A DNA stretch of 64,000 bases, taken from NCBI RefSeq assembly GCF_000003815.2, contig NC_049979.1, positions 28,268,249 through 28,332,248 of the forward strand, in the 5' to 3' direction. A model generated the notes under the pieces. That model did not search any database and was not told the DNA's origin. It saw only the letters and a program-made list of their open reading frames with translations. Made by a program: the position numbers and the translations under genes. Origin of the DNA: Branchiostoma floridae (taxonomy: Eukaryota > Chordata > Leptocardii > Amphioxiformes > Branchiostomatidae). Numbering within the stretch: position 1 is the first letter of the stretch; the number at the start of each line of letters is the position of its first letter. This document shows, piece after piece, positions 7,301 through 47,019 of the stretch.

Positions 7301-10300
7301 CGTCCGTCCCGTCCGACCGACCCGTCCGACCCCCGGACTATTGCATGGTTCGAACTGACGGTTCATGCCGGTTCGGACTAGTCCGGGACGGGCAAATTTT
7401 CACACAGGTTTATAAATCTACTTGAAGTCCTTGTAAAGAAATTCAGATAAGCACTTATATAGGAAAGACATAGAAAGAAATATCAACTTCTAAGACCTGT
7501 GATTGTGTTTTTCCCCAGTATTATGCATATAAGATGCCCCCAGACCTGGACATGGTGGTGGTGAAAGTTTCCTCACCGAGCAACCTGTGTGCTGTGTTCT
7601 CTCTTCAGCCAATCAAGGTGGGTCTGTCATTCTACTGATACCAAATTCCAATACACTTTGGCCCAGTGCTGATGTCACAGCTGTGTAAAAAGCATGTGTC
7701 CAAAGAAGTGTTGTTTTTGTAGTAGCTGTGTGTGTGTGTCCGTGTGTGCGAGTGTGTCTGCAATTCTCAATACAGACACAATGCCATACATACTCGGTAT
7801 AGGACTGGAAGGATAAAAAAACAGTATGGGTATTGGGGTGAAGTTTGCTGTCTCTGATAGCCATGTTGTACAGAGGCTGACATGATGTGACATGTTGTCT
7901 GTTTCTACACAGTGCCCAGTGTATGACTTGGACCGAAACATTGAGTTTGTGGGAATCTACCAGACTTTTATGAAGAAGGCTGCCATCACGGTACAGGTAA
8001 GGTGACTTAGTCTTATCGAAGTGTATCTGTATCTGTATAGCCAGTATAACCTGACCCTTTGGCATAACACACCAGCATAAACTGCATAAAATAGAAAACT
8101 GTAACGCTGGTTCACCTTTATCCGACCTATATCCGCTGTTTGTAAAAAAAGCATATTTAGGGACATGCAGTCTATGCTGCGGACAGTGGTTCCAAATCGG
8201 AACATTTTGAAGATAGTGCAAATTTGAAACCGCAGATTTAATACTCCTAAATGTGCTGTTTTTAAAGACAACGGATAAAGGTCACCCTGCGGATAAAGGT
8301 GAACTAGCGCTAGATCCAAAAGTAACTTGAATGCAAAAGTCATTGTTTGAATTGTGACATAATCATTCAAACCATAATGCTGTAACGTTGCCTTACTACT
8401 CCAACTTGCAGAAGAGTTATTTCCCCAATGGAGAGTTCTATGTGGTTGTGGTGGTAAAGGCTACGGATTCTGACTGCACTGGTGAGATGGAGACCATACA
8501 GCCTGCAAATCCTTCTGATGAAGGTAGGGGGCACTTCTGTTCTTTTTTGTTGTTGTTGTACATGCATGATCAGAGATACAACTGATAACTGTTAATAACT
8601 ATAAGCAAACTGTGCTTTTGCCTAATACTCACAAAATATATGGGAAAAAGGGTAAACTGTTTTTGATTTTGTGTCTAATACACCATACATGAACAGTAAG
8701 AAAAAGTGTCAAGTACATATAGATGCCCAAATGATAATCATTAAGAATAAGTTACTAATTTTGCTGGTTCATGTTAGGGAATGTCACACAATCTGTAGTA
8801 ATCTGTGGGGAAAAAAGCTGTTGAAATGTGGGGTTAGCATTCATCTGAATGCTAGCATGCCACATGTCGCTGTGATGTTGTTGACCAGTTAGTTGACCAA
8901 TGTGTCTTTTTTTCGGATACAGCATTCGAGATGCGGCGTGTGAAAGAAGTTACTGTCGTGGTGGGGCCATCTATCACAGGTGAGTAGAATGTATTTGTTT
9001 AGCAATGTCCAGTGGAAATTTCATAGTGCATGTATAGGAGTGAAATATAACTAAAAGAAAGGTTATTCTTGTCCTTGGTGCTGAATGTGCAACTGTTATT
9101 ACACAAGCTTCCATTAGAATAATTTGATTCCTTGTTTATTGTTTATCTATTTTATTTTATTCAATTTGATTACGTTTTGTGTAGGCCTAGTGCAAAGCTT
9201 ACTAGAATTCAGTTACTTTTATGTTGGGGTTGCTGTTGTTACAATTTTTTGTTCGAGGATACCAAATTTTCCCCACTTTTTTGTGTATTTCGCGTTAAAA
9301 CAGATGTTTTCTTGGGCGGGAATGAAATTGAATAAACACATCACGGTGTATTCCACATCATTCTCGGTCCCAGCCCTCCTGTTGGTCAGATCTCCTTTGG
9401 ATGTTTGCCCATCCGCAGTACATTGGGTGCTACATGTAGAAATTAGAGAGGCGATTAGGAACAGAAAAAAACAAACATGCTGACACCCGGGATCGAACCC
9501 GGGTCTGCAGATTAGAACTCGGGCGTAACCACTACGCTAGAAAGGGCCGATTTGTGTGGCTGTTTGGCGCTATTTAACCCCCCCCCCCCACACACACTGT
9601 TGGCTAGAAAAGGCTGATCAGCCAATTTGCTTAGCAGTTTGGCGCTACTTAAACCCCCCACTGTTACATACAGAATATACAGTGGTGTATTCTATACATA
9701 CATACACATGTATACAGTCACTGATTTGATTCCTCTTGACTTCCTCCTCCATGTAGATTCCCAGTACGTGACAGCAGTGTTTGTGGGGATCCTGGTGTTT
9801 GTGCTGTTCTATGTCGTCACCTTCATGGTGCTCTTTATCCAATGGATCAGGTGAGTGGTAATGTGTTAGCTAGCTTAGGTAGTAACGCTAGTTCACCTTT
9901 ATCCATGGAATAACCTATATCCGTCGTATTTAAAAACAGGCATTTAGGAAAATTATCAGGACGGAAAGTGGTTTCAAATTGCAATATTTTCAAAATATTC
10001 CAGTTTGAAACTAACGTCCGCTGACTTGATGTCCCCGAATACTCTGCTTTCAAAAACAACGAATATAGGTTACCCCACGGATAAAGGTGAACTAGTGTTA
10101 TATATATATATATATATATATATGAGAAAAAGTGTGATGAAAAGGTATGAAGCGCTGATGTTGATATTGGGGAGTTTTATCTAGTATACATAATTACAGT
10201 GGAAGCCAGCTATTTGCAATACGCTTTGTCGCAAAAATCGGTTAGTTGCAAAGAATTCTGAAATCCAAAACCATTTCCCATTGGCGCTATTGTTTACAGC

Positions 10301-31300: not shown

Positions 31301-34300
31301 CAATTTGTGATATATATTTATATAAACATGGTGAGTTAAAGCGTAGATTTATTACGCTGGACCACATACAGTAACATGCGTCTAGAAGAGCGTTTTAATA
31401 CTCGCCTGGAATGTACTATTGTCTAACTAAGCCATGAAACTCGGCAAGGAAAGAAGGGCCTTTGGAAGGGGCTTTGGAAGGGCTGGGTTAAAAGGTCCGT
31501 CCATTGATCCATGGAAAAAAGCTGGCGTAAAGCCTTGCCTGGCGGCAAGGCAAAAATACAAGTGAGTTAAATGAGGAATCCGATTAAAGCTTTCTGTTGG
31601 ATTAAAAAAATGCGTTCACATTTAATCGGATTAAACTCAAACTTGCGACCACGACAACCCCGAGTCGGGCACACGTCGTGCTTCCAAAATGTTGCCGGAC
31701 TACCTCATAATTTTGAAGGATTTAGTGACATTGATATTATATATGATAACTGTTGAGAAATTGGCTGGCTTTTGATGCGTCAACAGTCAACAAGAGCATG
31801 GCGCTTGTGAGGTCATACAGGTTAAACTGGGGGTAGAAATGTTGCGCGGGGTGTGATTATACTCTACATTTAACTGTAGTACAAAATGTAAATGTGTATG
31901 TTGAAAAAGTTGCATGAATAGGAGAAACTACTACTAAAACGTTTGTTGCATACTTTTTAGCCGGTGTGTAGCACTCCTATCTTAGTGTCATTGATTTAGA
32001 TATGAATTATAAGGCCATTCCTGCAGAAATTCCTGCAGGAAACATTCTTCCTGCAGGAATTTATCTTTCTCCTGCAGGAATTTCTGCAGGAATGCCTGCA
32101 GCATTCCTGCAGGAAAATGTTTTCCTGCAGGAATTCCTGCAGGAAAAACGCTTCCTGCAGGAATTCCTGCAGGAATTCCTGCAGGAAGAAAATTTTCAAA
32201 ATGAATATTCATGAAAGTTATTATCATATTTCACAACTGTGCATCATACTTGTCAATCATATGTAAAGACTTTGCACCAAGTGCTTTTATATTGAAAATA
32301 TTAGCACATTTCAAAATGGGAAAAACGGAATTCCAATCTTAAGATGGAGCTTCTTACTAGTAAACCTCATATTCTTGACATCTAAGTTAGAAAGATATTA
32401 AAAATGTCTCTCATGGTACTTGTTTAAGATTTGATAGCTTGTAACTAAGTTTTATTATTAGGTTATTGCTTAAATTTAAGTGGTGCACCCAAATTTTTTT
32501 GTGTGCACCCAATTTCTTAAGCTGGGTGCACCAGTGCACCTAATCCCAAAAATGAATTTCGAGCCCTGGTAGGGGTCCTTCCTTTTGTGAGTGGTTCCAA
32601 ACCTACAGTCCTATGGCTGCACATGGGGCATTTACTGTTGTATTGAGGTCACCTGAGTTAGCGCCAAATGGCAGCTCGCTCCAGACCCTCGCAATTTAGT
32701 CCCACCCATTGTCAGCTTCTGGCAATTCAGCCCCTGCGAAGAGAGAGTGAGAATCGGCCAACCCGATGATAATAACACCCGAAATATCAGTTAGAAAAAA
32801 TAGACGATATAAAAACGCATCATAACTGTAATCTGAAAAGTTATGAAGACTGTATGGTTCTCCAGTTCTCTGATTGGTCACCAAGCCTATTGGGCAATTA
32901 GAGATTAATGTCATTTAAATACCCACATTTGTTAGATGATTAGGATTTTCTATAAATCTGTTAACTCGAACCTTTAGGACTGGTGTAGATTTGTAGTTGT
33001 TGGTGTTGTACATGCACTGTATGGTGTGTAAAACTCCACTGTTTCATCCCCATCCATGTGTTCAGGTGTTTGGCACTCCTTACTTCTGGGCCATCTTCAC
33101 TGTTGTCTATGTGCTGGCTATCCTGGCCCTTACTGCACAGGTGTACTACATGGGCAGGTGGAGACTAGGTAGGACAGGAACACTTTTTTTCTTTAGTTTT
33201 GTTTCAAAGACGTTTTGTTTAAAATCACTTTCCCATATTTTGACTTTTGTTGTTGTTGTAGTTAATGTTTGATGAACCTTTTTGCACAAGTTATGAACAT
33301 GTCAATTCAACTAACTTAAAGTAAGATATAACGTTAGTTCACCTTTATCCGCGGGGTAGCCTACAATGTATATCCGTTGTGCTGCTAAACAGGGTATCCA
33401 AGGATATCAAGTCGATGGACGGTAGTTTCAAATTGTCATATTTTCAATATATTGCAGTTTGAAACCACCATCTGTCGACTGAATACCCCTAAATACATTG
33501 TTCTTAAAAGGAACGGATAAAGGTGACCCTACGGATAAAGGTGAACTAGCGTTAGATGACATTCTCTTGGAACCCCAAAACTGATGCAAGCATGAAAAAA
33601 AACAACCTTGGGCCAAAATAATTGTCTACATCATAAAATCTATGTGATCAGGAACGTTGAACCAAAGACAGATATGGTATACCAAATAATAGATTCGTCA
33701 TTTTTTTCACATCTTCTGTGACCTTGGAATTGACTATTAAATTCTATGTATCCATATCCATATTGCAATATTTTATTGCAATCTATGGCCAAAAGTCAAT
33801 ACATGCTCCGATGTCATCCACATACATTGTAGTCAAATCAACATGGCCTAATGTGACCACAGTCAGAGAGTAACCAGTATTTTAATACTAGGTACTTTCC
33901 ACTAAGCATTGATTGACTCTAGCCATGAATGATATGATACGTTATGTATGATATGTTATTTCTGTCCTGTAGACATGGGGATTTTCCATCGCATGTACCT
34001 CCTGATCAGAACAGATTGTTTGCAGTGTTCCAAACCGATGTACTGGGTGAGTAAACTTGCACTTTTATTTTTGACATGAAAGTAAACTTTAATGTTTTTT
34101 CCTCCCCTCTTATTACTAAAATTAGAAAGGTTGGAAAAAACAAAACTCAGTCTTGAATCTTCTCACCCCATACTCAGTAATTTTGCTTCAAATGTTCCCT
34201 GGAAGAGATGGTCACTAGACTTGAGGGTGTGCAACCTGAAATAAACTGGGGGTGTGTCCCTGGGAATTCTTATGATCATGAGGACATCCCAATATTAATC

Positions 34301-41000: not shown

Positions 41001-42030
41001 TAGAAATTTACTCCTAATGTCATCATGCTTCCGGATTTTGGAAAGTTGGCACAGCGAATCAGATATCTGATGAAGGTCGTCGAGATCTTTGTTTTTATGT
41101 TGGAACAAAACTGAAATTGTACAACTATGGATTCTACCAATGCAGTTGAGCTTTCATTCGAAGGTAGCTTCTTTTTTTTTCAGATTATACTTACTTTTGT
41201 GTGTTACATCATGTATCTAAGGGTTGAGTGCAATGTTAGCTTTCATGATATGTATTCCTAAAAGAATATATTGTCTGGAACTGTGGATGTTTATATTTCG
41301 AAATATTTCTTTTGTACATTGTACTCTGGCTATCTCTTCAGCACTTTTTGATGCACACATTTGTATATGAATACTGTATTTCTTTAGTGTGCCGTTCTTT
41401 CATGGGTTTGGGTAGATAGTATGTGTTTTCCATTATCAATTGCTATCATGTGGATGAAGGATGTTGTGTGAGGGACAGAAGTATTATTAAAAGGGTTGTC
41501 CCAGTAAACTATAAATGTTTCAATGTCAAACTTATTCCGGGATAAGATCAAGGTTAAAGTATGTACTCTAGCTTTTGTTGAAAACTTGTGAGTTAGAAGT
41601 TGCTGTCTTTACTGTAACACTAATTCACCTTTCTCCGAGGGGTAACTTATATCTGTTACTTTTATTGTATTTATGGTATTTAGGGATGTCAAGTCGACAG
41701 ACAGTGGTTGCAAACTGCAGTAAATGGAAAGAATTGTAATTTGAAGCCACCGTCTGCCAAATTGATATCAGTAAATACCCCTCTTTGAAAAGCAACGGAT
41801 AAAGGTTACCCCACGGATAAAGGTCAAGTAGCGTAATGTTTGGGGAAAATTTTGAGATACGTTGTAAGGTTGTTCTCCAATTTGCCGACCCCATACCACC
41901 GCCAATGCTCTGTTGAACTGTTGTGTCCTTTGGAAAGGACGAATTTTTTATTGTGTCATACATTACTGTATGGAGGTTTTGGATAGTGGTATGAAGTCTT
42001 AGTGTAAACTTTTCTGCTGCAAGAATAAAA
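38096..42030 (+). other. SIDT 3' flank, probable 3' UTR
   Basis: No gene is seen after the TGA. AATAAA signals stand at 38530-38535 (about 435 nt after the stop) and at 42024-42029. The stretch is AT-rich and largely non-repetitive to about 41600, so it may be a long 3' UTR with alternative polyadenylation. Where the transcript really ends cannot be read from sequence. Confidence 0.4.
41615..41835. mobile_element. Foldback MITE family A, copy 6
   Basis: Begins TAACACTAATTCACC, ends GGTCAAGTAGCGTA, in the SIDT 3' flank. Confidence 0.7.
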
Positions 42031-43818: not shown

Positions 43819-46800
43819 CTAGAAATATCAGTTTAAACGAAACAGTAATCATGTAATTCACAGCCACACATTGATATCCCTTTGCTCTTTTGGTGGGATG
43901 AATGCCATTACAATGATGCAAACAGACAAGAGAAAAGGAAAACGTATCATCCAAATTCAATGTTTACTGTGAAATATGTACACTGATGATAAAGCCGAAA
44001 ATAATTTAATCCTGGTTGGTAGAATATAGGATATAGGAGAATTCTTTTACACAGCCAGTGTGTACTTACTTTGCTTATAGTTATGTTGCAAGAGTTGTGA
44101 CTAAGTGTACATATAGGTGAAACCGGACGAAAGTTTGATTTGAAACAAGACTAGAAGATAAGAAATATGCAGTAACGGACCATATTGCCAGGAACAATTG
44201 AGTAATTGACTGGGAGGGGACCAAGGCCATAGACCGGGAAAACAAAAGGAAGATCGATCCGGTGGATCAAGGAGGCAGTCAACCACAGTGATGAAACGGA
44301 AACAAACTTAACCACGTTTGGGATTGTGTTCTCGCCGCAAAAGCGCCACCTACATCGGCTACATATAGCGGCGATAAGCAGAACTCCAGTTAAAAGCTCT
44401 GAGGAATGCGTCTGAGAGACATCGAAACGTAAGCAAAGTAAGTACATACTTGTTGTGTACAAGAATTGTCCTAGAGTCCATTCCAAGACACCATGAGGGT
44501 TTTTAGGCGATATTTATAATTAGTCTGAATTATTTTGAATAAAAGAATATCTGAGCCACAATAATTAAATTATTTTTAAAAAATTGACTGAGAAAGTACT
44601 CATATATTTGAATGCCTTTGAATATTTTAGAAACATTTTGAAAGTAACTGTACAAAAATATCTTTATTTAGAATAATTGTGAAACCTCTGTGTGATTATT
44701 TCACATTTACAAACATTTACAAAAAATGGTAAACCTCGCCAAATGGTTAAATTAGTTTATTGCCCCCATAAAAGTAAGCCCTATTGTTGTATCAGTATAT
44801 TTTTAGATTTCACTGGTGGATCCTTTGTGGTGGGCCATTGTTTCATGGCACCCAACCATACTTTGCAAGGATGTGTGAATTGCTATCTTCCCAGCCCACT
44901 GAACCATTTACAAAAAATGGTAGAAAATGGTAGATAATGGTAGAATGCTGTTATCATTATTTAGAAACCATTAGAAGTATCCAATTCCACACGATGAATA
45001 TTTCCAAAGTTTTACAGGACCAGGGAAATATTTATAAAGTTGAAACAGTGTTACAAATATTTCTGAAGTATCAAATGTCCTAGACATATAATTACAAAAC
45101 TTTAAAATCAATTCTAAACAATGGCCACAAACATCCGCATGGTGTCTTGGAATGGACTCTATATAAAACTGATAATAAGGGTTCCTACTAGGGCTGGGTA
45201 TCGGTACAGCGTACCGGTACAAAACCGGTTTTTCTTATTGGACCGGTCCAGAAAAACCGGACCTGAAAAAATTAGGTGGACCGGATGTTGGACCGATTAG
45301 AAAATTAACAGATTATTTTATAAGGCATTCACACGTTTTGGCGCTTGCAGGTGGAAGAAATTGCCAATCATACTGGTGCAGTTAGCGTTGTAGGATTTTA
45401 AAACGACAGTGTAAGTCTAATACTCCACCAAACAGATTTCTTTGTAGTGAAATGGACCATTGGTGTGAGTCATACTGCATCAGGTCCAGGTTCAGGTCCG
45501 GACCTGGACCTGATCCTCTGGACCTGAACCGGACCTGGACCGGAATGTTCTGTACCGGTACCCAGCCCTAGTTCCTACCGTTGGGACCCATGGTCTCCTG
45601 TAGTTTGTGATGATAGTGAGCCAGAATGGCATCCCTGTGGTTATGGAAGACGTCCCAGCTCGCGTTACACAGGAACAGGAGAGTCAGGTCGTAGGTTGGC
45701 GGCTTGTGCATCGGACTCTGCCAGTCCACCAGCCTTGCTGCGATGGGCCTGTCTCCGTCGTACTATGGTTAGGCAAGGACAAATCATTTTAATTTGTATA
45801 TCTGGAATTATATTTCATCATTTATGCATTAAGACTCAATAAAGTATCAAAGTATCTTGTAAAACAACGAAAGAAAACAAATGAATCTTGAGTGTAACAG
45901 CCATAATATACCGCTAGTTCACCTTTATCCGTGGAGTGACCTATATCCGTTGTCAGGGTATCTAAGGCGGGGCTTCAAGTTGACTGATGTTGGCTGCATA
46001 TTGCAATATTTTCAGTATATCAAAATAATTGCATTGCAAAACTACCGTCCACCATGAAATCCCTAAATGCCCTGTTTTTAAAAGCACGGATATTGGTTAC
46101 TCCCCGGATAAAGGTGAACTAGCGTTATACATTTCAACAAGAAAGGCAAAAAAGTGTTTTGTCGTACCTTAATCATGATATTGTTGATCCAACATTCCGT
46201 ATGACAAAGCACCTTACGCTTCGAGGTCTCCCCAAAGATAATCATGGGGTCCAACTTCTCCAGTCGAGCTACGAGGTCTGTCTGGACGTCAGGAAAAGCT
46301 GTGGCGAATTCCTTCACGCTTTTTTGATAAACGTGGGTTATTTCATCCTTCGCAGCTAAAGTATCTTTGGACGTCATGATCCAGTCGTACTGCTCGTCAA
46401 GGGGTTTGCCGAGACGGAGCTCCAGTAGATGTGACAGGCCGTGTAGCTGAGCCAGGGCCCCGGTAGCAAGCATCATCTCCTCACGGTCCAGCGGTTGGCG
46501 GTCGGGTTTGATAGAGAACCCCTGAGTTTTCAAGTTCTCCATTACCCTGACGGACAGCATGGAGTTTGGATCTGTAGCGGCGAAGTAGCATTTTGGCAGG
46601 AACAAGGAATCAGTAGGAGGAGGATTTTCTTCATCTTCATTCATTGGCGTAGATTCACGCTCTGTGTTTGAGATTAACACAGACAAGAGCTCGGGAACTG
46701 CATCAGAGTAAAACTTGACCTCCAACGTCTCGGCTCGGATATGAAAGTCCTTTGACCACTCTTCTGTTACGGTCAACGGCCGCGCAAAATCCGTCAGTTT

Positions 46801-47019
46801 AGCGACCAGACTGTAGCGCTGAGTTGTGCCATTCCTTGTCCCCATAGCATCAAAGGCGATGATGCTACTCATGAATCCTTCTCCTTCGCTGATGGATCCC
46901 TTGACATCGACGTCCGTGATGGTGATGCCCGGGAGATCCTTCTGCAATACCTGCTGCACCCAGGAGGGGGCGATGTCTGCTGCAGACTGGGGGATAGCGA
47001 TCTCGGATGCTGTTGCCAT
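43655..47019 (-). CDS. EcKinase-like (CHK kinase-like) protein, 3 exons, 399 residues
   Basis: Member of the ecdysteroid kinase-like family (EcKinase/DUF227, protein-kinase/APH fold), soluble enzymes thought to phosphorylate small hydroxylated molecules. Coding exons on the minus strand: 47019-46168, 45762-45579, 43818-43655; 852+184+164 nt gives 400 codons with phases 0 and 1 matching. ATG 47019 is chosen because it opens MATASEIAIPQS directly after a plausible acceptor (CTTGTTAAAG); reading further upstream needs a non-ATG start. Seen: N-terminal lobe with EGFMSSI and YSLVAKLT (ATP-side Lys), central VRVMENLK, catalytic-loop region LCHTECWINN (H273, E275, N279/N280), metal-site region LVDWQ (D297). 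Family members normally read HGDxWxxN, so the catalytic Asp is Glu here. Length agrees with the family (about 400). Substrate unknown. Confidence 0.9.
44195..44425 (+). pseudogene. Possible Penelope-like or related retroelement C-terminal remnant
   Basis: Plus-strand frames hold KAIDRENKRKID, then after a frameshift NKLNHVWDCVLAAKAPP, then SEECV, resembling the end of Penelope-type ORFs (REAIWI...NRD...LSHVWD). Broken by frameshifts and stops. Lies in EcKinase intron 2. Confidence 0.4.
45189..45570. mobile_element. hAT-type MITE at an EcKinase splice donor
   Basis: Inverted ends TAGGGCTGGGTA with ACCGGTAC-rich arms; 8-bp target duplication GTTCCTAC at 45181-45188 and 45571-45578. The right copy of the duplication is the donor sequence of EcKinase exon 2. 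Confidence 0.85.
45579..45762 (-). CDS. EcKinase-like coding exon 2
   Basis: Acceptor ACCATAG, donor AACG|GTAGGA. Encodes YDGDRPIAARLVDWQSP (the DWQ motif) and DLTLLFLCNASWDVF. Too short to be seen as one long frame, but phase-consistent with both neighbours. Confidence 0.88.
45910..46128. mobile_element. Foldback MITE family A, copy 7
   Basis: Begins ACCGCTAGTTCACC, ends GGTGAACTAGCGTTA, in EcKinase intron 1, where it falsely extends the exon-1 reading frame. Confidence 0.75.
46168..47019 (-). CDS. EcKinase-like coding exon 1
   Basis: 284 codons from ATG 47019 to NIMIK, donor AAG|GTACGA at 46167. Open reading frame beyond the donor runs into a foldback MITE and is not coding. Confidence 0.9.

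Follow-up and report, generated by a model that had tools for sequence, protein, structure and literature searches.

The window (the whole analysed stretch of 64,000 nucleotides of the Branchiostoma floridae genome, C1:28268249-28332248) contains a minus-strand ecdysteroid-kinase-like (EcKL) gene in which a hAT-type MITE stands directly behind the 5' splice site of exon 2, flanked on each side by the same eight bases (Table 1). The spliced EcKL protein scores 126.2 bits against PF02958 (Ecdysteroid kinase-like) in a profile search with a curated cut-off of 22, and the score against DUF1679 rises from 50.5 to 58.9 bits once exon 3 is joined via the proposed junction, which the alignment spans. 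The exon 2 border, AACG/GTAGGAAC (a slash marks the end of an exon or of a repeat), is backed by open frames, by this junction-spanning profile and by 19/19 of the distinct paralogs that were read. Between exons 2 and 3 and the nearest paralog, JC-corrected dN is 0.13 and dS 0.33, values which suggest that the coding sequence is under constraint.

Table 1. The EcKL gene of the window and the elements inserted in it (window positions)
Feature	Position	Strand	Remarks
Exon 1, EcKL gene	46168..47019	-	284 codons from ATG; open frame, PF02958, matched in paralog loci
TIR element I1 (MITE) in intron 1	45907..46129	-	inverted arms of 44 nt, 91% complementary
Exon 2, EcKL gene	45579..45762	-	ends AACG at 45579, phase 1; open frames, DUF1679 profile, paralogs
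Proximal target-site copy GTAGGAAC	45571..45578	-	intron positions +1 to +8; putative working donor
hAT-type MITE	45189..45570	-	382 bp, ends TAGGGCTGGGTAC...
Distal target-site copy GTAGGAAC	45181..45188	-	weak second donor, CTA/GTAGGA
Ancestral intron sequence	45162..45180	-	resumes at paralog intron position +9
TIR element I3 in intron 2	44472..45161	-	arms of 33 nt, 91% complementary; TA at borders
TIR element I2 in intron 2	44034..44473	-	arms of 44 nt, 89% complementary; adjoins I3 at a shared TA
Exon 3, EcKL gene, with stop codon	43655..43818	-	acceptor AG at 43820-43819; open frame; sequence matched in paralogs

Anatomy of the insertion

The first-pass annotation of this DNA had proposed that a hAT MITE, flanked by an 8-bp target duplication, lies at the end of exon 2 and that a second copy of the donor stands at its far end (45188-45181). 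Both claims are borne out, the proximal and distal repeats (on the minus strand) being identical at 8/8 positions; the repeat sequences and the distal position had been given correctly, but the upper limit of 45579 belongs to exon 2, as its last base, and not to the repeat. The inverted ends of the element extend over 23 nt, of which two belong to the repeats, and are 96% complementary. Terminal inverted repeats of hAT elements begin (T/C)AGGG, and the ends of the window copy (TAGGGCTGGGTAC...) have this form. The element is short, non-coding (its longest stop-to-stop frames reach 61-68 aa at most) and present in many copies, as expected of a MITE. Compared with the 433-bp family consensus it has a 51-bp internal deletion and a K2P distance of only 0.021; at so small a divergence two identical 8-bp copies are to be expected and do not point to selection.

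Some further features of the locus can be noted here. The MITE end ...CCCTA together with a repeat that starts with G spells AG (45188-45189), so that any copy with a GT-first repeat has a potential GT...AG pair around itself, one base off. The hAT MITE, I3 and I2 are all confined to roughly the first 27 nt of the ancestral intron; ATTATCAG and ATCATCAG flank this three-element pile on both sides. Relatives of I1 occur elsewhere in the window (9883-10102, 33327-33554 and 41620-41837, plus fragments).

The donor is older than the MITE

A protein search of the genome (513 Mb in 431 contigs) yielded 47 exon matches, from which 30 loci were fetched, 28 of them paralog loci and two the window itself; 17 of the 47 exon-match rows lacked a locus and were left out, five of these being exon-2 matches at other places. 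Once loci showing the same gene twice had been dropped, 19 distinct paralogs were readable at the end of exon 2, and in all 19 a GT occupies the same codon and phase, preceded by G in 15 cases and by A in four. The donor of three of them is GTGAGAAC, which fits GTnnnnAC. The MITE itself is absent from all 28 fetched paralog loci and was present only in the two window loci. Its distal flank of 19 nt shares 141/361 identities with positions +9 to +27 of the 19 paralog introns, whereas the first 19 nt of the MITE itself share 69; 2000 random intron draws gave a mean of 96 and a maximum of 135 (0/2000 as high), a control that is only indicative since it counts kin paralogs as independent. Beyond the TIR elements, homology to the introns of two paralogs (L055 and L052) resumes at about +12 to +14.

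The GT of 19/19 paralogs, the lack of this MITE in the DNA fetched for them and the flank resuming at +9 together support our main reading, that the element landed on an existing donor. They also agree with what had been proposed from the sequence of the locus: the anatomy and the paralogs' GT support a landing on a pre-existing 5' splice site whose proximal copy was kept, and the MITE-free paralog introns, with the distal flank that resumes at +9, support an intron that once ran without the insert. An allele without the MITE would read AACG/GTAGGAAC/CCTTATTATCAG; no second near-identical locus was found among the 47 exon matches, the best other identity being 80%. Both repeats have AG at +3/+4, where 14/19 paralogs have GA or AA, so that this change probably preceded the insertion.

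The MITE family and its target motif

We took the flanks of 40 copies of the family, namely the window copy and 39 fetched loci. In 34/40 the element has its two ends and is flanked by an 8-bp duplication with no more than two mismatches, the duplication being exact in 31 of these 34; the six copies without two clean ends were dropped from the duplication count. The 34 aligned copies are 375-440 bp long. The exact 19-base end of the family occurs 2,030 times in the genome (its reversed control 0 times), and the number of copies is therefore of the order of a thousand.

In the 33 copies other than that of the window, the target repeat begins with GT in 15 and ends with AC in 17, i.e. it is GTnnnnAC-like; T is found at position 2 in 26 and A at position 7 in 24, the two together, which is the hAT motif nTnnnnAn, in 19/33. 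On a target matrix built from these 33 copies the empty site of the EcKL gene scores 8.63 bits, a value that a fraction of only 1.6e-5 of window positions reach. The motif is nevertheless loose, with a leave-one-out median of 3.04 bits and 12/33 copies above the 99th percentile of the window. According to the matrix, a repeat that starts at +1 of a generic splice donor has a predicted 5.37-fold preference over background, the highest of 19 registers, followed by 3.66-fold at +5.

The same register is seen across the genome. The donor pattern G/GTRNG plus three bases stands directly before the MITE end in 34 genome matches, against one match when the pattern is made one base longer and three when it is made one base shorter. 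We read the sequence upstream of 32 of the 34 in-register matches, and only 4/34 (the window included) were judged to be real donors; the four shifted-register matches were also read and none has a recognisable exon there. The register contrast is a reflection of the target motif, and not of a recognition of donors as such.

The same arrangement in other genes

Three more genes have the MITE behind a donor. The clearest is one that we take to be CLUH-like (Pfam: PF12807 with 6.6e-7 on the exon, TPR_12 with 2.7e-8 on the spliced piece), where AAG/GTAAGATT is followed by a 266-bp MITE derivative and by GTAAGATT again, identical at 8/8, the following exons being in frame. In an MFSD2-like gene the border is GAG/GTAAGAAC and the distal copy, GTAA-CT-GAAC, carries two extra bases; when its spliced protein is aligned to the MFSD2A structure 7n98 (E 7e-8) the junction is gap-free, and in the alignment to 7oix a two-residue gap lies three residues ahead of it. 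The weakest case is a gene that is presumably laminin-G-like (AAG/GTGAGGAC), in which the following exon is in frame, the distal flank is mismatched (3/8), and neither Pfam nor PDB gave a match. At this last locus (L102, C19:6995694-6997500) the MITE is far longer than the family, its right end lying 1342 bp on, and it seems to contain a nested insert with mutually inverted ends (CGAGGGTGAGTCAGAAAGTAATGCAAGTGG).

How many such landings should one expect? We assumed 1,015 copies (half of the 2,030 ends), 200,000 donors in the genome and, as a further assumption of ours, that a fraction of 0.64 of donors fits the pattern. The expected number of landings on this type of donor is then 0.25 if the motif plays no part and 1.36 if it gives the 5.37-fold bias, and the probability of three landings besides that of the window is 0.002 and 0.16, respectively. 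With 100,000 to 300,000 donors the probability of three landings ranges from 0.0003 to 0.007 if there is no bias and from 0.03 to 0.33 if there is; if the laminin-G-like case is excluded, two landings have a probability of 0.03 without bias (200,000 donors). Unless donors are few, the motif suffices by itself in this small sample, with no need of special targeting.

Several other copies were set aside. L022 (C10:16379021-16380454), whose host we take to be a TIR-domain gene, was not counted because its candidate exon starts in phase 1 and the preceding exon ends in phase 0; its repeat, CTGGTAAG, is strong and donor-like at both MITE ends, CTG/GTAAGT scoring 6.53. L025 (ATG/GTAAGG) has no long frame upstream of it, the exon downstream being presumably GRIN2-like. 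L028 (C1:30530818) was left uncounted since it interrupts a frame that we take to be transposon-like, the 5' part of the MITE adjoining the end of this long frame at GTAGGGGC. L087 is antisense, near the apparent acceptor of an exon that we assume to be LTN1-like, and gave no Pfam match. L082, L086, L089, L105 and L111 have open frames without further support (no Pfam match for L082 and L089). Finally, L090 and two further matches, three of the 34 in-register matches, look like one tandem array and not like MITEs; of these only L090 was read.

Which donor copy would be used

On a vertebrate donor table, the proximal donor scores 2.51 and ranks 3rd of the 118 GTs in exon 2 and intron 2 together; the distal donor scores -0.99, i.e. 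3.5 bits less, and ranks 18th. Pairing with the end of U1 amounts to -7.9 kcal/mol for the proximal and -4.2 kcal/mol for the distal copy. Reading through from exon 2 gives GPNGRN and then an in-frame TAG, formed by the first bases of the MITE itself; because of this TAG at the opening of the MITE, use of the distal donor would yield a protein without exon 3. From donor score, U1 pairing and the TAG we would expect constitutive splicing from the proximal copy, whose working status is suggested by its conservation. The same table makes this donor weaker than 14/19 paralog donors, so that some leakage may occur. The first-pass annotation had seen in the distal copy an alternative donor that could exonise the MITE; given its weaker score, its weaker U1 pairing and the in-frame stop, such a useful role is unlikely. 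In each of the four genes either the proximal copy is the stronger or the distal copy no longer has its GT. A frame continued into the MITE is stopped immediately in the laminin-G-like gene, after 8 codons in the CLUH-like gene and after 26 in the MFSD2-like gene.

Discussion

We are confident, if short of certain, that a hAT MITE landed behind position +8 of an old EcKL 5' splice site and that this landing was favoured by a target motif that stands in register with the donor. In the scenario that we propose, the non-autonomous hAT element would have inserted right after intron position +8, and the staggered cut made during hAT insertion would have copied the eight bases from +1 to +8. The exon-side copy would still be preceded by bases -3 to -1 of the exon and would carry the intron bases read by U1, and because this copy is intact splicing should continue, the gene surviving with an intron longer by 390 bp. 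The distal copy would have the MITE end CTA at -3 to -1 instead and, being weaker and reachable only via the in-frame TAG, is most likely unused or gives rare decay transcripts. The landing would be favoured because the GTnnnnAC-like motif, which comes with a mild flanking preference, coincides in register with a splice donor, and other donors appear to have been hit likewise by this family.

Could the element have fallen on the donor by pure coincidence, with no bias toward such sites? Any single event looks improbable in retrospect, the window was picked for this very feature, and our calculation rests on an assumed number of donors. This explanation seems to us improbable all the same, as GT opens the repeat in 15/33 other copies, the register contrast is 34 versus 1 and 3, and the three further landings have a probability of 0.002 if unbiased against 0.16 if biased. 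A related view would be that MITEs land anywhere near exon ends and that selection keeps only those insertions that spare the donor; insertions into exons or into the interior of a donor would presumably be purged and those behind +8 tolerated. An insertion one base deeper should however be equally tolerable, yet there is a single match for it against 34, and the motif is present in copies that were sampled regardless of donors. Such survivorship may well act in addition, but as the sole cause we consider it quite unlikely.

Two further alternatives concern what the insertion did to the gene. That the distal copy is an alternative donor which exonises the MITE has in its favour the GT of this copy, with all of +1 to +8 preserved, and a proximal donor that is not strong; it is nonetheless improbable, and slightly more so than a coincidental landing, since the distal copy comes 18th of 118 GTs (the proximal 3rd), pairs with U1 at -4.2 against -7.9 kcal/mol and, through the TAG that follows the proximal repeat, would cost the gene its paralog-matched exon 3. 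One may also imagine that the MITE created the intron, in the manner of introners, which are reported to draw 5' splice sites from target duplications (PMC9860276), and the TA of the MITE end with the G of the repeat also spells AG. To this we can give hardly any credence: the paralogs have GT at the same codon in 19/19 cases and none of 28 paralog loci has this MITE, the acceptor lies 1.4 kb past the MITE, where the sequence can be aligned with paralog introns, and splicing at the MITE's own AG would remove one G of the target.

The landing on an old donor, which we prefer, can be compared with several known systems. Members of the hAT superfamily (hobo, Hermes, Ac) share with our family an 8-bp duplication, short terminal inverted repeats and a target motif, reported as GTNCGNAC for hobo (PMC3276498) and as nTnnnnAn for Hermes (PMC2803484); the copies of our family that we examined are, by contrast, all non-autonomous. 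Mar of Drosophila is likewise described as a short non-coding hAT MITE (PMC3517528), whereas here family copies adjoin splice donors in one register. Introners, as reported (PMC9860276), resemble our case in that the target duplication of a DNA transposon includes a 5' splice site, but they make new introns; in the EcKL gene, with the donor in 19/19 paralogs and none of them carrying the MITE, an old donor was duplicated and the intron merely lengthened. The titles and abstract openings that were read contained no report of hAT target duplications on host donors, which is a weak indication.

The landing on a splice site is in our opinion an expected result of hAT target choice, and it is repeated in other genes. 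This amounts to a simple, testable rule, namely that the bases preferred by the hAT transposase include those that start an intron, and it would account for elements that enter genes at the very splice site without doing damage. It is an evenly balanced proposal, for which we would claim neither more nor less, that, owing to the register match between GTnnnnAC and the donor, hAT elements in this animal, and perhaps in others, generally prefer splice donors as landing sites and do little harm there. Each landing would then copy a donor and lengthen an intron without loss of function, leaving tandem donors around a MITE, from which new exons or an introner-like gain of introns could readily develop, and so a possible first step toward TE-derived exons and introners.
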